This document shows positions 13,572 to 58,206 of a DNA stretch of 64,000 nucleotides, in pieces. This DNA comes from Thioalkalivibrio nitratireducens DSM 14787 (GTDB taxonomy: Bacteria > Pseudomonadota > Gammaproteobacteria > Ectothiorhodospirales > Ectothiorhodospiraceae). Every line of letters starts with the position of its first letter. The stretch's first letter is position 1. The translations under genes were made by a program, and so were the position numbers. A model generated the notes under the pieces. That model ran no database searches. It saw nothing but the letters and a program-made list of their open reading frames with translations, and had not been told where the DNA came from. Where the stretch lies: assembly GCF_000321415.2 (NCBI RefSeq), contig NC_019902.2:2232001-2296000 (forward strand). The letters run 5' to 3'.

Positions 13572-13612
13572 TTGCGCGCCAGGCCGGCGCCACCCATCGG
13601 TAACGAAGAGGC

Positions 13613-13725
13613 GTAGGGCGGAAGAGGCCGAAGGCCGTCATCCGCCATCCGGCGCCGGGGTTGCCGCAGGCGCCGGGGATGCGCGAACGCCGAGCGGCGG
13701 ATGACGCTGCGCTATTCCGCCCTAC
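13613..13725 (+). repeat. REP-like palindromic element, full copy
   Basis: A 113-bp element has inverted ends (GTAGGGCGGAA at the left, TTCCGCCCTAC at the right). The left arm is itself a hairpin of the form GCGGAAGAGGCCGAAGGCC...CCGCC. Related copies occur at 26344 (degenerate), 44886 (degenerate), 48989, 50442 and 58020-58116, always between genes. It has no coding capacity. It resembles REP/BIME-type dispersed repeats; no RAYT transposase gene is in the window. Confidence 0.75.
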
Positions 13726-21618: not shown

Positions 21619-21957
21619 TCATACCAGAGGCCCGCCGCCCGGAGCGAAATACCGCAACGCTGTGGGCCTGCCGCGCTTGTCGGAGCCGCCGAAGATCGAG
21701 GCCGACGCCCAGGCCGTCGACACCAGATCAGGGACCGACAGCTCCGACGCGAGCATGCGATCCTTCAGCGACACGATGTCCCGGGCATCGATCAGTTCGT
21801 GGTCAACCGCGGGTACCGGATCCTGCCAGGTCAGGTCCTCAGCCGGAACCGAGCGCTCGACGCTATGCCCCTGACGGCCGCTGCTGACTTTCATGGCCAG
21901 CGGCCACCCTGAACGAGGGAAAGGCGAGCCACGCAGAACACGGACCGACACGGACAT
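21619..21957 (-). pseudogene. katG: Remnant of catalase-peroxidase KatG (start of C-terminal domain)
   Basis: A 112-codon frame contains a segment unmistakably like the start of the second peroxidase-like domain of Kat[21 protein letters not shown], then [20 protein letters not shown] and [14 protein letters not shown], where intact KatG reads close to [20 protein letters not shown]. Nothing upstream resembles the N-terminal heme domain with its distal RWH triad, and after this segment the frame ends in unrelated residues. Only about 70 of over 700 residues remain, so catalase activity is excluded. It sits in degenerate DNA between thrS and a hypothetical membrane gene. Confidence 0.75.
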
Positions 21958-22173
21958 GCGGTTCGGTCCGTCTCATCGCCCGTGATTCCCGTGTTCGTCC
22001 GCAGCTGCCTTCCCACGCTGACGCAGCCATCGGTCCCGCCGCAGCGGAAAGCCGGTTCCTCGCAGCAGGCGCCGGTGTCGCCGGCCACGACGACCTGCGC
22101 CGTCGGCCGGTGCATGTTCACCGGACCGACGGTATTCGGCAAAACGATAGCCGCCGGGGCCGCCCGGCATGCT

Positions 22174-22779
22174 TCAGCAGGCCGATGGAGTGTCCTGCGC
22201 GTCACGCTCCAGGCAACGTATCAGGAACAGGACGGTGAGCATGTGGCCCAGGGCCAGCAACACCGCGAGCACGGCGTAGAACACGGCCCAGGGTACGAAA
22301 CCCTGCAACAGCATCAGCGTCGTGGGGAACCCGATCAGGATCAGGTAAAAGATCCCGAAGGTCGGGAACGCAACGCGGTCATGCACCCGGCGCTGCCAGT
22401 CCGGCCAGGCCAATGCCAGCGCGAACACCGGTTCCGGGCCCGGATAAAGGGCATTGAGCCGTGTTTCGAAGCGGCGCATGCGTGCCTGATGAAAGAAGAA
22501 AATCGACTGCTTGAGCAGGTTGTAGAACAGCACGAACATGATCACCAGCAGCAGCGTCGTGAAGCCTACCGGTGTCACCGGCTCGTCGAGGCGCACGTTT
22601 AGATCCAGCATCCTCGCCATGGGATCCCAGGCGAGCACGGCCCCGACCGCCCCCAGCAACTTGATATCCGACAGCGCGCCCCTGATGTAGGCGTTGCAGC
22701 TTTCCGAGAGACGTACGTACTCCTTGTACAGCAGGTCCGTGGTCTCCGCCCCTTCCGCCTCACGTGGTGTTTCGTTCAT
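22174..22779 (-). CDS. Hypothetical integral membrane protein
   Basis: A 201-residue protein with no family I recognise. It has an acidic N-terminus, a weak hydrophobic segment at about 45-60 (LLGAVGAVLAW), and clear membrane segments at about 73-92 (FTTLLLVIMFVLFYNLL), 137-157 (FPTFGIFYLILIGFPTTLML) and 162-190 (PWAVFYAVLAVLLALGHMLT). A charged loop of about 45 residues lies between the first two clear segments. A GAGAGGGGG stretch precedes the ATG. It stands alone between the katG remnant and a MITE-like element. Codon bias looks normal for the window, so it is probably a real gene. Confidence 0.65.
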   Translation of the reverse strand: MNETPREAEGAETTDLLYKEYVRLSESCNAYIRGALSDIKLLGAVGAVLAWDPMARMLDLNVRLDEPVTPVGFTTLLLVIMFVLFYNLLKQSIFFFHQARMRRFETRLNALYPGPEPVFALALAWPDWQRRVHDRVAFPTFGIFYLILIGFPTTLMLLQGFVPWAVFYAVLAVLLALGHMLTVLFLIRCLERDAQDTPSAC

Positions 22780-22821
22780 GGTGCGCCCCCTCTCTCGTCA
22801 AGGCCGGTTCCATCGAGTCTC

Positions 22822-23100
22822 CTGATTATCACGGAAGCTCCGCAAACTGGAACGGACCGTCTTCGAACGCACCGTCATCGCGAGAAGCGAAGCCTTTAGC
22901 CGCGAGCGCAGCGAGGCGGGACGTGGCGATCCAAACGGCGTGAGTCCTCACGACGCCGCCTGGATTATTCGCTGCGCTCACCCTGCGGGCCGGCCTTCGG
23001 CTGTTCAATGCGCTACACGCATGGGTGCTTCGCGACGCCTGCAATGACGACCGACGCAGAGCGGTGCCATCCTGGCTGCAGAGGTTTCGTGATCATCAGG
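22822..23100. mobile_element. MITE-like element, copy A, with 8-bp target duplication
   Basis: A 279-bp non-coding element begins CCTGATTATCACG and ends CGTGATCATCAGG, so its ends are inverted repeats that extend imperfectly through about 22 bases (TGATTATCACGGAAGCTCCG against TGATGATCACGAAACCTCTG). It is flanked on both sides by the 8-mer TCGAGTCT (22814-22821 and 23101-23108), as expected for a target-site duplication. A second copy, inverted, is at 36784-37061 and matches it along most of its length. Inside are smaller palindromic segments of the CGTCATCGCGAG / CTCGCAATGACG kind. The remaining bases of the 22780-23260 gap show nothing definite. Confidence 0.8.
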
Positions 23101-23260
23101 TCGAGTCTAGCCCTTGACGCTCGAGGCCATCGATGCGCCCCCTGCGCCGATGCCATGCGGATCATCGCCTTCCCGACCGCTGGCTCGGCGGTCCAACGGG
23201 TCGCGCATGGCATCGGCGAGACGAGCGGCCGCACGCATGCGTGCCGCCCGCGCGGAGGGA

Positions 23261-23896
23261 TCAGCGCGCGGTCTGCTCCCGAACCGCCCGGAGATCCCAG
23301 TTCCTCAGAAGCTCGACGGCGACATCCGACGACTCGAGATTCCTGCCCTTGACCTGCATCATGATGCGGCCGTCCAGCAACAGCGTCGCCTCAGCCTGCG
23401 CTCTATTCGGCTCCCATTTGAGCATCGCGGATTCGCGCCCGATGCGCACGCGCTCGGTATTGGGTTGTGCCGCCATCATCGCCGGGTTGTTGAATATGGC
23501 CGCCACCCCCTGAATCATCGGGCTGTCGACGATCAGCGACGCTTCCAGTTGCCCGGAGCCGTCGTCCTGGGTGTAGGCACGCTGCAACATCGTCCCGCCA
23601 CCGCCGAACATCCCGGCCATTCCGCCCCCGCCGGATTGCGATTCCACCAGCGCCGCGGTCCAGCCGGCCGGTGCATCCGGGAAGGTGTCCGCGATGCGGT
23701 TGGCCATCAGTTTACGGATGTCGTTGATCGCGAACTCGAGTTCCGTGATGGCCGCCCCGTAGTCCTGCTCCTGGTACAGATCCAGGCCCAGTTCGATCTG
23801 CTCCTGGATCTCGTCGGCGAGTGCCGGACCTGCGGTTGACATCAGAAGGCCCGCGCCAAGGAGCGTTACAAAGAGGGGCTGGTGTGGGAATCGCAT
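23261..23896 (-). CDS. Hypothetical exported protein
   Basis: I place the start at the ATG at 23896 (211 residues), where GGAG precedes it and a signal peptide follows (MRFPHQPLFVTLLGAGLLMS, ending PALA-D); the open frame goes back to 23995. The mature part begins with a helical stretch (IQEQIELGLDLYQEQDYGAA) resembling a single TPR-like helix pair, then a glycine-rich linker (GGGGMAGMFGGGG) and a probable beta-rich C-terminus with LLLDGRIMMQVKGRN. I recognise no enzyme motif. It is likely periplasmic, monocistronic, and lies next to a MITE-like element. Confidence 0.6.
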   Translation of the reverse strand: MRFPHQPLFVTLLGAGLLMSTAGPALADEIQEQIELGLDLYQEQDYGAAITELEFAINDIRKLMANRIADTFPDAPAGWTAALVESQSGGGGMAGMFGGGGTMLQRAYTQDDGSGQLEASLIVDSPMIQGVAAIFNNPAMMAAQPNTERVRIGRESAMLKWEPNRAQAEATLLLDGRIMMQVKGRNLESSDVAVELLRNWDLRAVREQTAR

Positions 23897-24240
23897 GCGT
23901 GTTCTCCGTTGTTGAAGGGGGTAAACCGTGATCCGCGGGGAACGTACCCGCGTGGCCCGGATAGCGCGCGCAGCGCACGACGGCAGCCACGGCAAGCATG
24001 GCAGCTATGGCGACGCGCTGCCATCGGGCCTCTCGAAACGGGTCCGGCAAGACCCTGCAACCCGCACGATTCAGCCGGGCCGGGAATCGCCTGCAGGTGC
24101 ACTGGCGGCCCATTGGCGTTGCGGACACATCGGCATCGCCCGCTACGATCCCCGAAGCCTCTGCAGCGCATCGGACTGGCGATGCGCACGTCATGCGCAC
24201 CGTGCACAGGGTGCGATGGCGCGAAGCCGGACCGGAACGA
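23897..24240. other. Intergenic region without a recognised gene
   Basis: About 340 bases between the exported-protein gene and the BCCT transporter stop. Short frames exist on both strands, but none has a ribosome-binding site plus family resemblance. No hairpin with a T-run or tandem repeat is obvious by eye. Confidence 0.5.
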
Positions 24241-26513: not shown

Positions 26514-27395
26514 TCAATGCGTACCGTACATGATGCTGGTGTCCAGGAACCCGAACAGCACCAGCAGCGCCAACGCCCAGACATAGAAGGAAAACACCTT
26601 GAGCTGCGCCCGGTACAGAAAATACAGCACCATCTTCAGAGAGACGATACCGACCACGGCCGAGACCACGAACCCCACGGTCAATGCTGCCCAGCCAATG
26701 TCACCGAGGCCGTCGGCACGAAAAACCTCCAGCGACTGCACCAGCGTGGCAGCCAGAATGGTGGGGATGGCGAGAAAGAAGCTGTATTCCGCGGCCCAGC
26801 GGCGCTTGAGACCGCTGAACAACGCGAAGGTGATGGTCATGCCGCTGCGGCTCAGCCCCGGAACCAGCGCAAACCCCTGGGCTACCCCGATCACCGACGC
26901 CACCCGTGGGCTGATCTGGCGCAGGCCCCGAGGGCGCCGGCTCAAACCGTCCGTCCACCATAGCAGCACCCCCGTCAGGGTCAGGGTTCCCGCAATCAGC
27001 AACGGATAGGCGAACACGCGCTCGAAGGTCAGCTTGAGAGTAAAACCCACCACGGCCGTGGCAAACACCGACAGCACGATCAGCAGCCCCAGCCGCAGAT
27101 AGAGCATCTCGCGCCCACCCGCCCCCCTCGAACTCGCCCACTGCCACGATTCGCGCACGATATTGCCGGACAGATGCAGCAGGCTGCGCCAGAACACGAA
27201 CACGATCGACACCAGCGTGCCCACATGCACCACCAGATCGAACAGGATCATCTCCGGGCTTTCCGGTGGCGGAAGGGGTTGCCCCATGCCGATCAACCAG
27301 TGCTGGGTCAGCACCAGATGGGCGGTAGAGCTCACCGGCACGAACATGAAGACCCCCTGCACGATCCCGAGCAAGGTGGCAATCCATAACGTCAT
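26514..27395 (-). CDS. uppP: Undecaprenyl-diphosphatase UppP (BacA)
   Basis: UppP removes a phosphate from undecaprenyl diphosphate to recycle the lipid carrier for peptidoglycan and gives bacitracin tolerance. I take the ATG at 27395 (293 residues); the frame extends upstream to 27734 without resemblance. Family motifs: LGIVQGVFMFVPVSSTAHLV at the N-terminus (in most family members the key glutamate lies in EG[LI]TEFLPVSST, and here the segment reads VQGVFMFVPVSST, so that site is altered) and the second signature GFALVPGLSRSGMTITFALF. About eight membrane segments are evident. The altered first motif is a reason to test activity. Confidence 0.85.
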   Translation of the reverse strand: MTLWIATLLGIVQGVFMFVPVSSTAHLVLTQHWLIGMGQPLPPPESPEMILFDLVVHVGTLVSIVFVFWRSLLHLSGNIVRESWQWASSRGAGGREMLYLRLGLLIVLSVFATAVVGFTLKLTFERVFAYPLLIAGTLTLTGVLLWWTDGLSRRPRGLRQISPRVASVIGVAQGFALVPGLSRSGMTITFALFSGLKRRWAAEYSFFLAIPTILAATLVQSLEVFRADGLGDIGWAALTVGFVVSAVVGIVSLKMVLYFLYRAQLKVFSFYVWALALLVLFGFLDTSIMYGTH

Positions 27396-27706
27396 TTCAG
27401 CCGAAACTCCAGGCCGGCAACGGGCCGCGCAGTATATCGGATCCTCGACACGCGCTTCGCCTTGCTGCCGCTGCAGGCAGCGGCAAGAAACCCCTCCCCC
27501 GTTTACGGCGCAGGGTTCGGGAGGAAGTGAGCGCACTGCCTGGCCGCGGGATACGCTCCCGCATCCCTTTCCTTCGGGCTCGCCTCCAGCCGTTCGAAAT
27601 ACGCTAGCGGCGTATGAATCCCGCACACGCGCAAGGAGACGACCGCTCCCACCCGCGGCGCGCGGGTGCCCCCTCGACGCAGCGGCAGCGGCCAGTGCCC
27701 GCGGGC
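27396..27706. other. Intergenic region between uppP and dinB
   Basis: About 310 bases. A GCCGCTGC-AG-GCAGCGGC inverted repeat lies at about 27467-27486, with no T-run on either side. I see no gene, tRNA or convincing promoter. Confidence 0.5.
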
Positions 27707-33828: not shown

Positions 33829-34218
33829 ATGCGCAACTCTCTGAAGCTTCTCGCCGCCGCCGCCCTGGTTGGTGCCTTCGCGATCCCGATGCACGCCAGC
33901 GCCCAGTGGGGCGGTCCGGGCTACGGTGGTCCGGGCTACGGCTACGGCGGTCCCGGCTACGGCTACGGCCCGGGCTACGGCCGCGGCTTGGGTGACATGT
34001 TCGGCATGGGCGACATGTTCAGCGACTTCGACTTCTCCGCCCGCGGTCGCGGCCACGGCCACGGCTACGGCCGCGGCTACGGCGACGCCTACGGCTACGG
34101 CCAGCCCTACGGCTACGGCCGCGGCTACGGCTACGGCGCCCCCTACGGCTACGGCGCGCCCTACGGTGCCCCGATGCCCTACGGCCAGCAGCAGCCTGAA
34201 GCCGCTCCCGCCGAATAA
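33829..34218 (+). CDS. Sulfur-globule-type exported Gly/Tyr/Pro-rich protein
   Basis: The 129-residue product has a signal peptide ([20 protein letters not shown], cleaved after HASA) and a mature part of [11 protein letters not shown] and PYGYG repeats around a central segment, [20 protein letters not shown]. Purple sulfur bacteria make similar small Gly/Tyr-rich secreted proteins (SgpA/B type) that coat periplasmic sulfur globules, and their central D/F/M segment before RGRGxGxGYGRG looks alike. AGGA lies 8 bases before the ATG. The gene is monocistronic with a strong terminator. If correct, the host deposits extracytoplasmic sulfur when oxidising sulfide or thiosulfate. An unrelated low-complexity secreted protein remains possible. 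Confidence 0.72.
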
Positions 34219-34293: not shown

Positions 34294-34310
34294 CGTTGCC
34301 GGGCTACGGC

Positions 34311-34430
34311 AACAGTCGCGGAAGCGACACCCACTGCGCGATCGAGTGCAACGGGTCCCGCGCCGTGCCCAACAGTCGCGGAAGCGACACCCACTGCGCG
34401 ATCGAGTGCAACGGGTCCCGCGCCGTGCCC
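34311..34430. repeat. Perfect tandem duplication of a 60-bp unit
   Basis: Bases 34311-34370 and 34371-34430 are identical (unit starting AACAGTCGCGGAAGCGACAC). The unit length is a multiple of three, so any frame through it stays open with a repeated 20-residue block; the segment GTCGCGGAAGCGAC is palindromic. It follows the terminator of the sulfur-globule-type gene. The remaining bases up to 34706 hold no recognisable gene. Being identical, the duplication looks recent. Confidence 0.9.
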
Positions 34431-36601: not shown

Positions 36602-37240
36602 AAAGCAGCCACGGAAGAACACGCAAATCACGGAAGATGAAACAGACCAAGCCGTTTCCTCTTGAGAAACAAACTGCTAGGACAACATGAAATCATGTGG
36701 GTTACCAGAGTGCCGATGGTGCCCCACTGCAGTCCCGGTTTCTGCGCGAACGCCTGCCCCGGTATGGGCCCGGGGATGGGATGCTGATTATCACGAAACC
36801 TCCGCAGCGAGTGCGACGCCGTGCAGCGTCGGTCGTCATTGCGAGCGTAGCGCGGCACTCATGCGCGCAGCGCATTGAACAGCCGAAGGCTGGCCCGCAG
36901 GGTGAGCGCAGCGAATAATCCAGGCGGCATGGGGAAGACCATCGCCGCTTGGATCGCCACGTCCCGCCACGCTGCGCTCGCGGCTAAAGGCTTCGCTCCT
37001 CGCGATGACGGTGGTTTCGATGACGGCCCGTTCCAATTTGCGGAGCTTCCGTGATAATCAGCCTCCCAACCCCGGCCGAGGCCGCGGCAGGCGCTCGCGG
37101 AGAAACTGTGCTCGGAGCGAGGCCGATGGTTGCTGCAGGCGCCCTTTCCGCAAGTGATTGATTTCCAATGAGGGACACAGTTTGTTTCTCAAGAGGAGCC
37201 GTTTTCCCGTGTCTGTCCGTGCTTTCCGTGGCTCGCCTTT
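36602..37240. repeat. Inverted repeat pair enclosing MITE-like copy B
   Basis: The 20-mer TCCTCTTGAGAAACAAACTG at 36657-36676 recurs perfectly in inverted orientation at 37178-37197. Weaker similarity continues outward on both sides through CACGGAA-type repeats (about 36608-36656 and 37198-37235). The arms enclose about 500 bp, including the whole of MITE-like copy B. A related CACGGACNNACACGGA patch also occurs near 21935. No gene is seen in the 36562-37354 gap. Confidence 0.7.
36784..37061. mobile_element. MITE-like element, copy B (inverted)
   Basis: Bases 36784-37061 begin CTGATTATCACGAAACCTCC and end CGGAGCTTCCGTGATAATCAG-like, forming terminal inverted repeats. Read in reverse, the element matches copy A (22822-23100) along most of its 278 bp, including GGATTATTCGCTGCGCTCAC and GCGAAGCCTTTAGCCGCGAG. 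Unlike copy A, no direct repeat flanks it, so it may be older or have arrived by recombination. Confidence 0.75.
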
Positions 37241-37309
37241 GCATCGTGCAAGGCGGCCGCTGGCCCGAAAGGTAACGTGAACGTCGCGATCATGCCCGCG
37301 CGCTCCCTT

Positions 37310-37348
37310 GGGAGCGTGCCTTGCACGCGAACGCGCCGCAGGCGCGCC
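37310..37348. repeat. Short dispersed repeat GGGAGCGTGCCTTGCACGCG
   Basis: The segment GGGAGCGTGCCTTGCACGCG continuing to GGCGCGCC is nearly identical to that at 48839-48877. Both are intergenic and palindrome-rich. Similar TGTGGGAGCG repeats are known from Pseudomonas and relatives. Confidence 0.65.
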
Positions 37349-37354
37349 CGGCGA

Positions 37355-42581: not shown

Positions 42582-44774
42582 ATGACCCGTTACGTGACCC
42601 ATGAGCGGCTGCAGGTGGCCGCGGAACTGGACCGCTTCATCGCAGACGAAGCCCTTCCGGGCACCGGCATCGAGCCCCAGGCCCTCTGGTCCGGCGTCGA
42701 TGCGCTGGTCCACGACCTGATTCCGCGCAACCGGAATCTCCTCGAGCGACGCGACATGCTGCAGAAGCAGATCGACGCCTGGCATCGAGCACATCCCGGT
42801 CCGATCCGCGACCTCTCTGCGTTCCGCGAATTCCTCGAGGAGATCGGCTACCTGGCCGACGCCCCCGCCGATGTCCGCGTCAGCACCGCCAATGTCGACC
42901 CGGAAATCGCGGTCCAGGCCGGGCCGCAACTCGTGGTACCGGTGAGCAATGCGCGGTACGCGCTGAACGCCGTCAACGCCCGCTGGGGCAGCCTGTACGA
43001 CGCCCTGTACGGCACCGACGCGATACCCGACGACGACGGCGCCGAACGCCGTGCCGACTACAACCCGGTACGGGGCGAAAGGGTGATCGCTTACGCGCGC
43101 GACCTGCTGGACCGCGCAGCCCCGCTCAAGTCCGGCTCACACCACGACGCGGTTGGCTACATGGTCGACGAGGGCCGACTGATCGTGAACCTGGACAACG
43201 ACGACGAGACCGCACTCGAGGATCCGTCCCGGTTCGCCGGCTACCAAGGCGAGGCCCGGAAACCCTCGGCCGTGCTGCTGAACAACCACGGCCTGCACCT
43301 CGAGATCCAGTTCGACCCCACCCACCCGGTCGGACGCGAGGACGCAGCCGGCATCAAGGACATCCTGGTCGAGGCCGCCGTCACCACGATCATGGACTGC
43401 GAGGACTCGGTCGCTGCCGTCGACGCCGAAGACAAAACCGGCGTATACCGCAACTGGCTGGGCCTGATGAAGGGTGATCTCGAGGCCTCGTTCCAGAAGG
43501 GCGACGAGGTAATCACCCGCCGGCAGAACCCGGATCGCGAGTACACCGCCCCGGACGGCGGCAACGTGTCCCTGCCCGGCCGCTCGCTGATGTTCGTGCG
43601 CAATGTCGGCCACCTGATGACCACCCCCGCGATGCTCGACAGCAATGGCGGCGAGGTATTCGAAGGCATCCTGGACGGCATCGTGACCAGCCTGCTCGCG
43701 CTGCACGACCTGAAGCGGTCCGAAGGTGGCAACTCGCGCACCGGCTCGGTGTACATCGTGAAGCCGAAGATGCACGGTCCGGACGAGGTCGCGTTCACCT
43801 GCGAACTCTTCGACCGGGTCGAGGATCTGCTGCGCCTTCCGCGCAACACGCTGAAGATGGGCATCATGGACGAAGAACGGCGCACCTCGGTGAACCTGAA
43901 GGCCTGTATCGCCGCTGCGGCCGCGCGCGTGGTGTTCATCAACACCGGTTTCCTCGACCGCACCGGTGACGAGATCCACACCGCGATGGAGGCCGGTCCC
44001 GTGCTGCGCAAAGGCGACATGAAGGGCGCGAAGTGGATCGCCGCCTACGAGCGCAACAATGTCGTCGTCGGGCTCGCCTGCGGCCTGCGCGGCCGTGCCC
44101 AGATCGGCAAGGGCATGTGGGCGATGCCGGACAGGATGGCGGCGATGCTCGAGCAGAAAATCGGCCACCCGAAGGCCGGCGCCAACACCGCCTGGGTGCC
44201 CTCGCCAACCGCCGCGGTGCTGCATGCGCTGCACTACCACGACGCCGATGTCGCCGCGATCCAGCAGGAGATGGAGGCGAACCTCGACCCGGACATCGAG
44301 CGGCAGCTGCTCGACGACCTGCTCGCGGTGCCGGTGGTCGAACGCCCCGAGTGGCCCGACGAGGAGATCCAGCAGGAACTCGACAACAACTGCCAGGGCA
44401 TCCTCGGCTACGTGGTCCGTTGGGTGCAGCAGGGGATCGGCTGCTCGAAGGTCCCGGACATCCACGACGTCGGCCTGATGGAGGACCGCGCAACGCTGCG
44501 CATCTCGAGCCAGCACATCGCCAACTGGCTGCACCACGGCGTGGTCGACGCCGGCCGGGTGCATGCGACGTTGGAGCGCATGGCGGCCGTGGTCGACGAG
44601 CAGAACCGGGACGACCCGCTGTATCAGCCGATGGCCGCCGACTTCGACGCGTCGATCGCGTTCCGCGCCGCCTCCGATCTGATCTTCAAGGGCCGCGAGC
44701 AGCCCTCGGGCTACACCGAGCCGCTGCTGCATCACTGGCGCGCGGTGCAGAAGGCCGAGCGGCAGGGGGCCTGA
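42582..44774 (+). CDS. glcB: Malate synthase G
   Basis: GlcB condenses glyoxylate with acetyl-CoA to malate. I use the ATG at 42582 (730 residues, [20 protein letters not shown]), with GGGAGG upstream; the frame is open to 42405. The isoform-G signature [20 protein letters not shown] is present, along with [40 protein letters not shown] and the C-terminal domain [20 protein letters not shown]. It follows glcDEF after about 260 bp, so glyoxylate from glycolate goes directly to malate. It is also the second step of the glyoxylate shunt with aceA 6 kb downstream. The single copy in the window is form G, not form A. Confidence 0.96.
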
Positions 44775-48836: not shown

Positions 48837-48930
48837 TGTGGGAGCGTGCCTTGCACGCGAACGCGCCGCAGGCGCGCCTGGCGCTGGCGGCCACCCCAAC
48901 GCCGTTTCGCGAGCGAGGCTCGCTCCCACA
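48837..48930. repeat. TGTGGGAGCG-type palindromic repeat
   Basis: The element has inverted ends, TGTGGGAGCG and CGCTCCCACA. Its left part is nearly identical to 37310-37348. It fills a large share of the 300-bp gap after the zinc-ribbon methyltransferase; the remainder is another REP-like hairpin and nothing else recognisable. Confidence 0.7.
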
Positions 48931-48988
48931 CGGTGGATTACAGCGGCGTTCGGCACGCGCCGCGCCTGAGGAAACCCCGGCGCCCGAT

Positions 48989-49018
48989 GGCGGATGACGG
49001 CCTTCGGCCTCTTCCGCC
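48989..49018. repeat. REP-like hairpin
   Basis: GGCGGATGACGGCCTTCGGC followed by CTCTTCCGCC is the same hairpin as at 13613-13646 in reverse orientation, apart from the ends. Confidence 0.7.
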
Positions 49019-50347: not shown

Positions 50348-50441
50348 GGCTGCCCCTCCGTCGCGGATTCCTCGCCCTGAAGTCTATCCCGCCCGAAAAG
50401 CACGGGCCAGCGCGGGCCTGCGGCAGCCCCGACGTGGGAAT

Positions 50442-50475
50442 GGCGGATGACGGCCTTCGGCCTCTTCCGCCCTAC
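50442..50475. repeat. REP-like hairpin
   Basis: GGCGGATGACGGCCTTCGGC followed by CTCTTCCGCCCTAC matches the hairpins at 48989 and, inverted, 13613 and 58083. It lies downstream of the aceA stop. Confidence 0.72.
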
Positions 50476-50578
50476 CCATCTACACCGAGCAGACGGCAGG
50501 CCGACAGGGGTGGCCGGGGACCGGACAGCGCCGGATCGGCCAGGGGGCTGGCCTCCTACGTTGCCCGGGCGCCGTTCG

Positions 50579-58019: not shown

Positions 58020-58116
58020 GGCGGATGACGCTGGCGCTCTTCCGCCCTACCCGTGCTCGCCATGGATCGTGGAACCAGCCCCGTAGGGCGGAAGAGGCCG
58101 AAGGCCGTCATCCGCC
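58020..58116. repeat. Pair of REP-like hairpins in opposite orientation
   Basis: GGCGGATGACGCTGGCGCTC...CCGCCCTAC (58020-58050) and GTAGGGCGGAAGAGGCCGAA...CCGCC (58083-58116) form a BIME-like pair. The two arms correspond to the right and left arms of the element at 13613-13725, in swapped order. It lies between the DUF3683 gene and suhB. Confidence 0.72.
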
Positions 58117-58206
58117 GTTCCGGCGCCGAGCGGGCCGCTTTCCCTTCCGGACGGGCTTGTGTATCGTTCCCGGCCCGATCCCTGACCGCGTACCGGAGAC
58201 GTTTCC

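Follow-up and report, generated by a model that had tools for sequence, protein, structure and literature searches.

The stretch at 22821–23100 of the window (the whole 64-kb piece of DNA that was analysed) raises two questions: how a short sequence with inverted ends came to lie there, and what it carries. The window is part of a genome represented by a single 4.0-Mb contig, referred to here as the home genome, which made it possible to follow the sequence through its copies, their flanks and the corresponding sites in related genomes.

The 280-bp element

The element is 280 bp long, with inverted ends (CCTGATTATCACG...CGTGATCATCAGG) in which 19 of the 23 outermost bases pair, and it is bracketed by an exact 8-bp duplication (Table 1). 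An earlier note on this DNA had described the inverted ends and the duplication, both of which are borne out, but its length of 279 bp was one base off. The interior had been described as non-coding; no ORF of at least 80 aa lies wholly within the element (a mechanical ORF, 23008–23352, extends beyond it), and there is no transposase gene inside, but the REP dimer present there had been overlooked. The neighbouring minus-strand ORFs have no Pfam match; the element is upstream of one (22174–22779), the start of which is 41 bp away, and downstream of the other (23261–23995). In the window alone, the 12-base end pattern, with two mismatches, gave six matches against 2.3 expected, which is not significant.

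Table 1. Positions, in the window, of the two MITE insertions and their parts
Feature	Position	Strand	Remark
8-bp target duplication, left copy, TCGAGTCT	22813–22820		
MITE, end type I-I, 280 bp, cargo A (CGTC-type REP dimer)	22821–23100	+	
Left terminal inverted repeat, CCTGATTATCACGGAAGCTCCGC	22821–22843	+	
Cargo A, head-to-head CGTC-type REP dimer (CGTCATCGCGAG ... GCAATGACG)	22873–23049		REP class as described in the text of PMC3733652
Optional 26-bp module M26, inside first REP	22894–22919		
Optional 60-bp module M60, inside second REP	22966–23025		
Right terminal inverted repeat, more diverged, reverse complement CCTGATGATCACGAAACCTCTGC	23078–23100	-	
8-bp target duplication, right copy, TCGAGTCT	23101–23108		
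8-bp target duplication, left copy, AGCCGTTT	36650–36657		
Larger element, end type III-III, perfect 19-bp CCTCTTGAGAAACAAACTG ends, 539 bp	36658–37196		
Core: internal type I ends (outermost base changed to G) and cargo A	36784–37061	-	
8-bp target duplication, right copy, AGCCGTTT	37197–37204		

Copies, target duplications and empty sites

The end pattern (up to three mismatches) occurs at 104 places in the home genome (50 + 54), whereas the reversed control occurs at none. Similarity searches of the same genome gave at least 70 matches, many of them an inverted end matching itself; the best 40 of 135 candidates were scored, and copy numbers from these whole-genome searches are lower bounds. 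Patterns and similarity together yielded, from the fetched loci, 88 distinct end-to-end elements, which are not a random sample: at least three orthologous pairs share a site (L021/L062, L024/L070, L080/L129), and L003 and L004 have one arm in common. The ends are about 22 bp long and the elements 146–314 bp (search range 120–330). The home genome contributed 43 elements, 37 of the ordinary I-I type and six with one or two extended ends.

The 8-bp duplication is exact in 25 of the 37 ordinary elements of the home genome and holds for at least seven of the eight bases in 31; in the other six the flanks do not match. Among the 87 elements with both flanks, which entered the duplication test, the flanks agree at all eight bases in 37 true pairs, against 4 of 7482 control pairs made from the left flank of one element and the right flank of another. 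The duplication ends at 8 bp, the ninth base being equal in 16 of the 37. The earlier note had reckoned with copies devoid of flanking duplications, but copies elsewhere do have them. The right flank of L041 and the left flank of L022 (home positions 1374470 and 595188), two elements without a duplication of their own, share seven of eight bases (AGGCGTTA/AGACGTTA), possibly following a rearrangement between MITE copies.

Insertion is not indifferent to sequence. In the 57 elements with a duplication of at least seven of eight bases, CA stands to the left in 36 (background 5.3%) and TG to the right in 26 (background 5.9%), and the duplication has A or T at position 1 in 53 and at position 8 in 55 (background 37%); this describes a loosely palindromic target, CA-[A/T]N6[A/T]-TG. 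The earlier note had also pointed to sister strains as a place to look for empty sites, and two were found: the insertions at 701478 and 2333319 of the home genome correspond to uninterrupted sites in the sister genome G011, each with a single copy of the target, conserved at seven and six of the eight bases. These two were the judgeable sites among ten joined sites queried, for which the best 40 of 257 candidates were taken up by a high-copy repeat from the flank of L051. Short elements with terminal inverted repeats, a fixed 8-bp duplication, dispersed copies and empty sites are what is found in MITEs, and the discrete ends, duplications, target preference and empty sites support the view of the earlier note that the element was moved in trans.

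Extended ends

A second, inverted copy had been placed at 36784–37061. Such a copy is indeed present there, 87% identical to 22822–23099, but these limits are not an insertion boundary; they lack a flanking duplication because the copy forms the central part of a longer element, 36658–37196. The latter carries an exact 8-bp duplication on both sides, and 36784–37061 is therefore a core rather than an insertion. Copies with G as the outermost base generally behave in this way: they have no duplication at that boundary, and most extend into arms ending in CCTCTTGAGAAACAAAC. This type III end is found at 15 places in the home genome (control 0), seven of them in six elements with both ends located and eight solo. 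Exact 8-bp duplications surround four mixed III-I elements, with one old and one new end (L197, L208, L210, L211), and one III-III element; the sixth, L207, has no duplication. The type III ends are very probably an outer pair added to some copies, working on both sides or in combination with a type I end.

An inverted pair of a CCGTGTCTGTCCGTG-type repeat (21895–21964 and 37196–37265, 80%) adjoins the larger element in the window, and CCGTGTCTGTCCGTG-like sequence also lies near some other MITE copies. At L048 (882–1381, home 2024881–2025380), a 500-bp mosaic has several type I ends inside a single exact 8-bp duplication (TGACTCTT); it consists of nested or recombined MITE copies.

REP dimers as cargo

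Cargo A has the CGTC tag, short stem, CCA tail and head-to-head dimer of CGTC-type REPs, by a comparison made by eye with the text description of this type rather than with a figure consensus (PMC3733652). The same ends of about 22 bp also enclose other interiors, a point missed by the earlier note: TGTAGGAGGCCAGCCTCTGGCCGATGG...GGCTCGCCTCCTAC in class B, and GTAGGAGCCTGCCTTGCAGGCGAAGG... with GTGGGAGCGCGCC... in class C. By eye, both are GTAG-type dimers (TGTAGGAGGCCAGCC..., TGTAGGAGCCTGCC...), with some GTGG variants. In terms of the GTAG and CGTC superfamilies, as the text of PMC3733652 presents them, cargo A fits the second, and the tags of B and C are GTAG/GTGG. After removal of 24 bp at either end, 15 representatives gave no match across classes A, B and C at E 1e-3. 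Exact duplications flank 26 of 47 elements with cargo A and 8 of 25 with cargo B. Another 16 elements are unclassified, and 4 of them have an exact duplication; 14 of the 16 match class C, and the other two, L055 and L167, are without duplication. Outside the home genome and G011, class B has 7 exact duplications among 24 elements, and class C has 3 among 12; at least seven of eight bases agree in 16 of 24 and 7 of 12, respectively. Unrelated interiors thus lie between the same ends, with duplications, and the ends are independent of the interior.

It could be argued that what moves is the REP dimer itself, by means of a RAYT-type single-strand transposase, and that the inverted ends are no more than its preferred landing place. 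REPs lie within palindromes in three other species, including the CGTC-1 dimers of Halothiobacillus neapolitanus, according to the text of PMC3733652, and palindromes holding REP dimers are also reported from A. variabilis; in the home genome, CGTC units also form arrays without such ends, among the matches listed; and L106, a C-type element, has an additional REP dimer inserted in it. A PF01797 (Y1_Tnp) gene, noticed incidentally in the home genome (L185, 588–1433, minus strand, home about 26667–27512) and of RAYT type by eye, makes it possible that REPs move by themselves. However, with all three cargoes it is the outer ends, and not the REPs, that the 8-bp duplication directly borders, RAYT transposition is not known to give a target duplication, and the two empty sites in G011 lack the whole element. 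A RAYT enzyme would account for the entry of REPs into the MITE and not for the movement of the whole, for which this explanation is improbable. The Y1_Tnp gene (IS200-like) adjoins a PF01609 transposase gene and is a candidate REP mover.

A second vehicle for cargo A

Copies matching only the inner part of the element are not naked; they sit between GGAAGCGCTGA ends, in a second type of MITE (chassis II) of which at least ten elements with cargo A exist in the home genome. The limits of the cassette are nearly identical to those of the 22873–23049 cassette. Among the ten chassis II copies examined, exact 4-bp duplications flank L057 (CAAG), L058 (CTAG) and L228 (CTAG); as scripted, one other copy has three of the four bases and the rest fewer. 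IS5-type elements have CTAR targets. The GGAA... ends and CTAG-like 4-bp duplications of chassis II resemble theirs, and on these two features, the ones seen here, chassis II looks like an IS5-type MITE.

Internal modules and low divergence

Orthologous elements at 44086 of the home genome and 74721 of G011 are nearly identical except for clean modules of 26 bp and 60 bp; at 1516424 and 1913164 the differences are confined to the 26-bp module and a C run, and the elements at 967910 and 2483631 show no such difference. The 26-bp module also differs between elements at different loci of the home genome (L004 and L024 versus L044_975), which are identical over 253–256 aligned bases. No microhomology was seen at the module junctions, and the element at 44086 has locus-specific variants between the two modules, so that the module exchange is most simply read as short-patch gene conversion between copies.

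Over 640 aligned bases the three orthologous elements differ by one substitution, whereas their 400-bp flanks have 105 over 2397. This low divergence, together with a DNA fold of 22821–23100 that is stabler than that of shuffles (z −4.4), might suggest a dispersed, non-mobile hairpin (an RNA element or a protein-binding site), maintained by selection and amplified by recombination. Such an origin is very unlikely: the exact duplications largely refute it, and it is also at odds with the preferred target, the empty sites and the lack of relation between the interiors. The conserved RNA gene considered as a possibility in the earlier note finds no support in an Rfam scan of the window, in which no family reached its gathering score over the element and the only such match was a tRNA. 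The divergence of the flanks at the three loci is uneven (0.2% to 12.5%). On these three loci the low divergence of the elements fits gene conversion, recent spread or exchange, and selection alike, and a reading of it as selection was set aside; uneven flanks and identical copies at different loci fit recent spread or gene conversion. The MITE may have a functional role after insertion.

Distribution

With up to one mismatch, the end is found in 8 of 58 genomes of relatives, all in the same genus and counting the home genome. Among 369 genomes of the class it occurs in two, the home genome and G373 (one mismatch); the latter lies outside the genus and was taken as a chance match, since the reversed control also matched once in the class search (G348). 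The exact pattern gave 50 stretches in the GTDB r220 contigs, a scan that may omit records close to the home genome; 46 are labelled Thioalkalivibrio, and the other four come from the metagenome bins Gammaproteobacteria PLM2.Bin7 (two stretches), Ectothiorhodospiraceae T3Sed10_218 and Puniceicoccaceae LCM1.Bin39. The viral contigs and plasmids gave no match to the end pattern. The family is one of the genus of the window, most relatives found being labelled Thioalkalivibrio.

Search for the donor transposase

More than one IS family is compatible with an 8-bp duplication; besides those searched for here, IS66, IS256, ISL3, IS1595 and others make duplications of this length. The earlier note had proposed looking for a full IS with the same ends, and none was found in the home genome, in the 50 GTDB stretches or around the PF01609 genes. 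In the home genome, no pair of ends 0.7–4 kb apart (100 of the 104 places listed) combines matching flanks with a transposase gene, and in the GTDB stretches, where end pairs and flanks were compared, no transposase gene lies between such ends. None of 19 ORFs between lone or distant ends (L022, L036, L104, L106, L135, L141, L144, L145, L151) matched a Pfam transposase family. The family search was for PF01609 (IS4/IS5-like) and PF13701 (IS1380): none of the 16 PF01609 genes of the home genome and two of G011 has CCTGATTATCACG-like ends with a duplication, and PF13701 has no hit in any of the eight carrier genomes. Looser end patterns, class-wide and GTDB scans and a duplication-guided search for longer elements also gave no candidate donor; its mark would be CCTGATTATCACG or CCTCTTGAG ends with 8-bp duplications.

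Several candidates were rejected. The pair of lone ends at 593261/595471 encloses a Beta-Casp gene, and the pair at 555749/561650 consists of two solo ends around feo-like ORFs (by eye) with unrelated flanks, both in the home genome. The PF01609 locus in L185 has convergent three-mismatch ends 1.3 kb apart, both inside ORFs (the right one within the transposase ORF), with different 8-base flanks; that in L182 has an end pair 76 bp apart. In L127 (557–1948, metagenome contig SKJG01000026.1), a 1.2-kb candidate comprises two MITE-like stretches around a host gene, with flanks agreeing at six of eight bases; an ORF between these stretches encodes a Gly/Tyr-rich protein, and repeats at 33936–34157 of the window are similar to this region by eye.

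Descent from a composite or other IS, for instance of IS110 type, decorated by these ends is the least likely origin: an IS110-family gene adjoins a type III end in L209 (PF01548, PF02371), an IS110 remnant (88% alike over 403 bp) adjoins one in L202, and another such gene interrupts cargo A in L055 (PF01548), but these are the only three places among the loci examined, the L055 gene interrupts the MITE itself, IS110 elements are not known to make an 8-bp duplication, and none of the three is the donor. At L202 (home 2926303 region), the type III end and the remnant adjoin a CRISPR-like array with repeat CGGTTCATCCCCGCGCGGGCGGGGAACGC (by eye).

Where it was searched for, a partner IS with the same ends was thus not found. 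The assignment to the MITEs stands without one, because orphan MITEs are usual. The donor may have been lost, may have diverged at its ends, may belong to another family or may be absent from draft assemblies.

Proposed mechanism

The sequence at 22821–23100 is, very probably, a non-autonomous MITE of IS type moved in trans, with REP dimers as its passengers. Because the searches turned up no complete IS with such ends, we infer the transposase rather than observe it. The enzyme, most likely of the DDE class, would recognise the ends of about 22 bp, cut the CA-[A/T]N6[A/T]-TG target with an 8-base stagger and insert the element, and repair would produce the 8-bp duplication. The interior is free: in this genus the ends enclose REP dimers, arranged head to head, whose sequences fall into three or more unrelated kinds, and the REP hairpins would therefore ride as passengers. 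Transposition of the whole unit would spread the REPs, the CGTC type included; the duplications around elements with A, B and C cargo show that REPs and ends move together. REPs probably entered the MITE by secondary insertion, although the ends may instead have formed around REPs.

A wider reading is possible, and we put it forward tentatively, as something we do not yet hold to be probable. IS-type ends and REP dimers would form a modular system in which both are interchangeable, the dimers being shared by two or more unrelated MITE vehicles. Outer ends would be added stepwise (I-I, I-III, III-III) and internal modules swapped by gene conversion, and CGTC REPs would generally be dispersed in this way by the transposase of the vehicle rather than by one dedicated to them.

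Relation to known elements

IS-derived MITEs, of which MITEAba12 is reportedly one, make target duplications. The present element is like them in being gene-less, with inverted ends and many copies, and unlike them in that its interior is a REP dimer rather than a deleted IS and no donor IS was found. Other members of this group named in the text of PMC3733652 are NEMIS, RUP, ERIC and Nezha.

The closest likeness is to QMITE2 of Coxiella burnetii, described in the text of PMC5896051 as a 150–190 bp MITE with inverted ends, variable direct repeats of 7–11 nt and, inside, a GTAG REP that is the target of IS1111. Both have inverted ends, direct repeats and a REP inside, but QMITE2, by that account, is one family with one type of REP, whereas the present family has three unrelated REP dimers, including CGTC, and exchanged ends. 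The earlier note knew of no named MITE with these ends. MITEs with a REP core are already known (QMITE2), and in PubMed Central, which leaves subscription papers uncovered, no paper on this family was among those listed. Nor was there any on unrelated REP dimers between the same ends, on a dimer shared by two vehicles, or on mixed ends. What is new is the interchangeable cargo and the interchangeable ends.

CGTC REPs occur in bacteria of five phyla, and the text of PMC3733652 reports no dedicated transposase for them and leaves their mover open. The words "target site" are absent from its main text, and no duplication test was seen there; the REPs of the present family move inside a MITE. Transport as cargo between IS-type ends is a plausible route for CGTC REPs, and the question of their mover becomes testable through target duplications around the dimers. 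MITE ends that work independently of the sequence they enclose, placed around unrelated hairpins in a soda-lake sulfur bacterium, suggest how repeats without a known mover of their own could spread through genomes.

Other repeats in the window

A dispersed repeat, TGGGAGCGTGCCTTGCACGCGAA, which is GTAG-REP-like, lies at 37309–37353 and 48839–48883. Another, GTAGGGCGGAAGAGGCCGAAGGCCGTCATCCGCC, lies at 13607–13682, 48953–49018, 50420–50481 and 58083–58138, and a relative of it is found at dozens of places in G011. Positions 34310–34429 are a perfect 60-bp tandem duplication.
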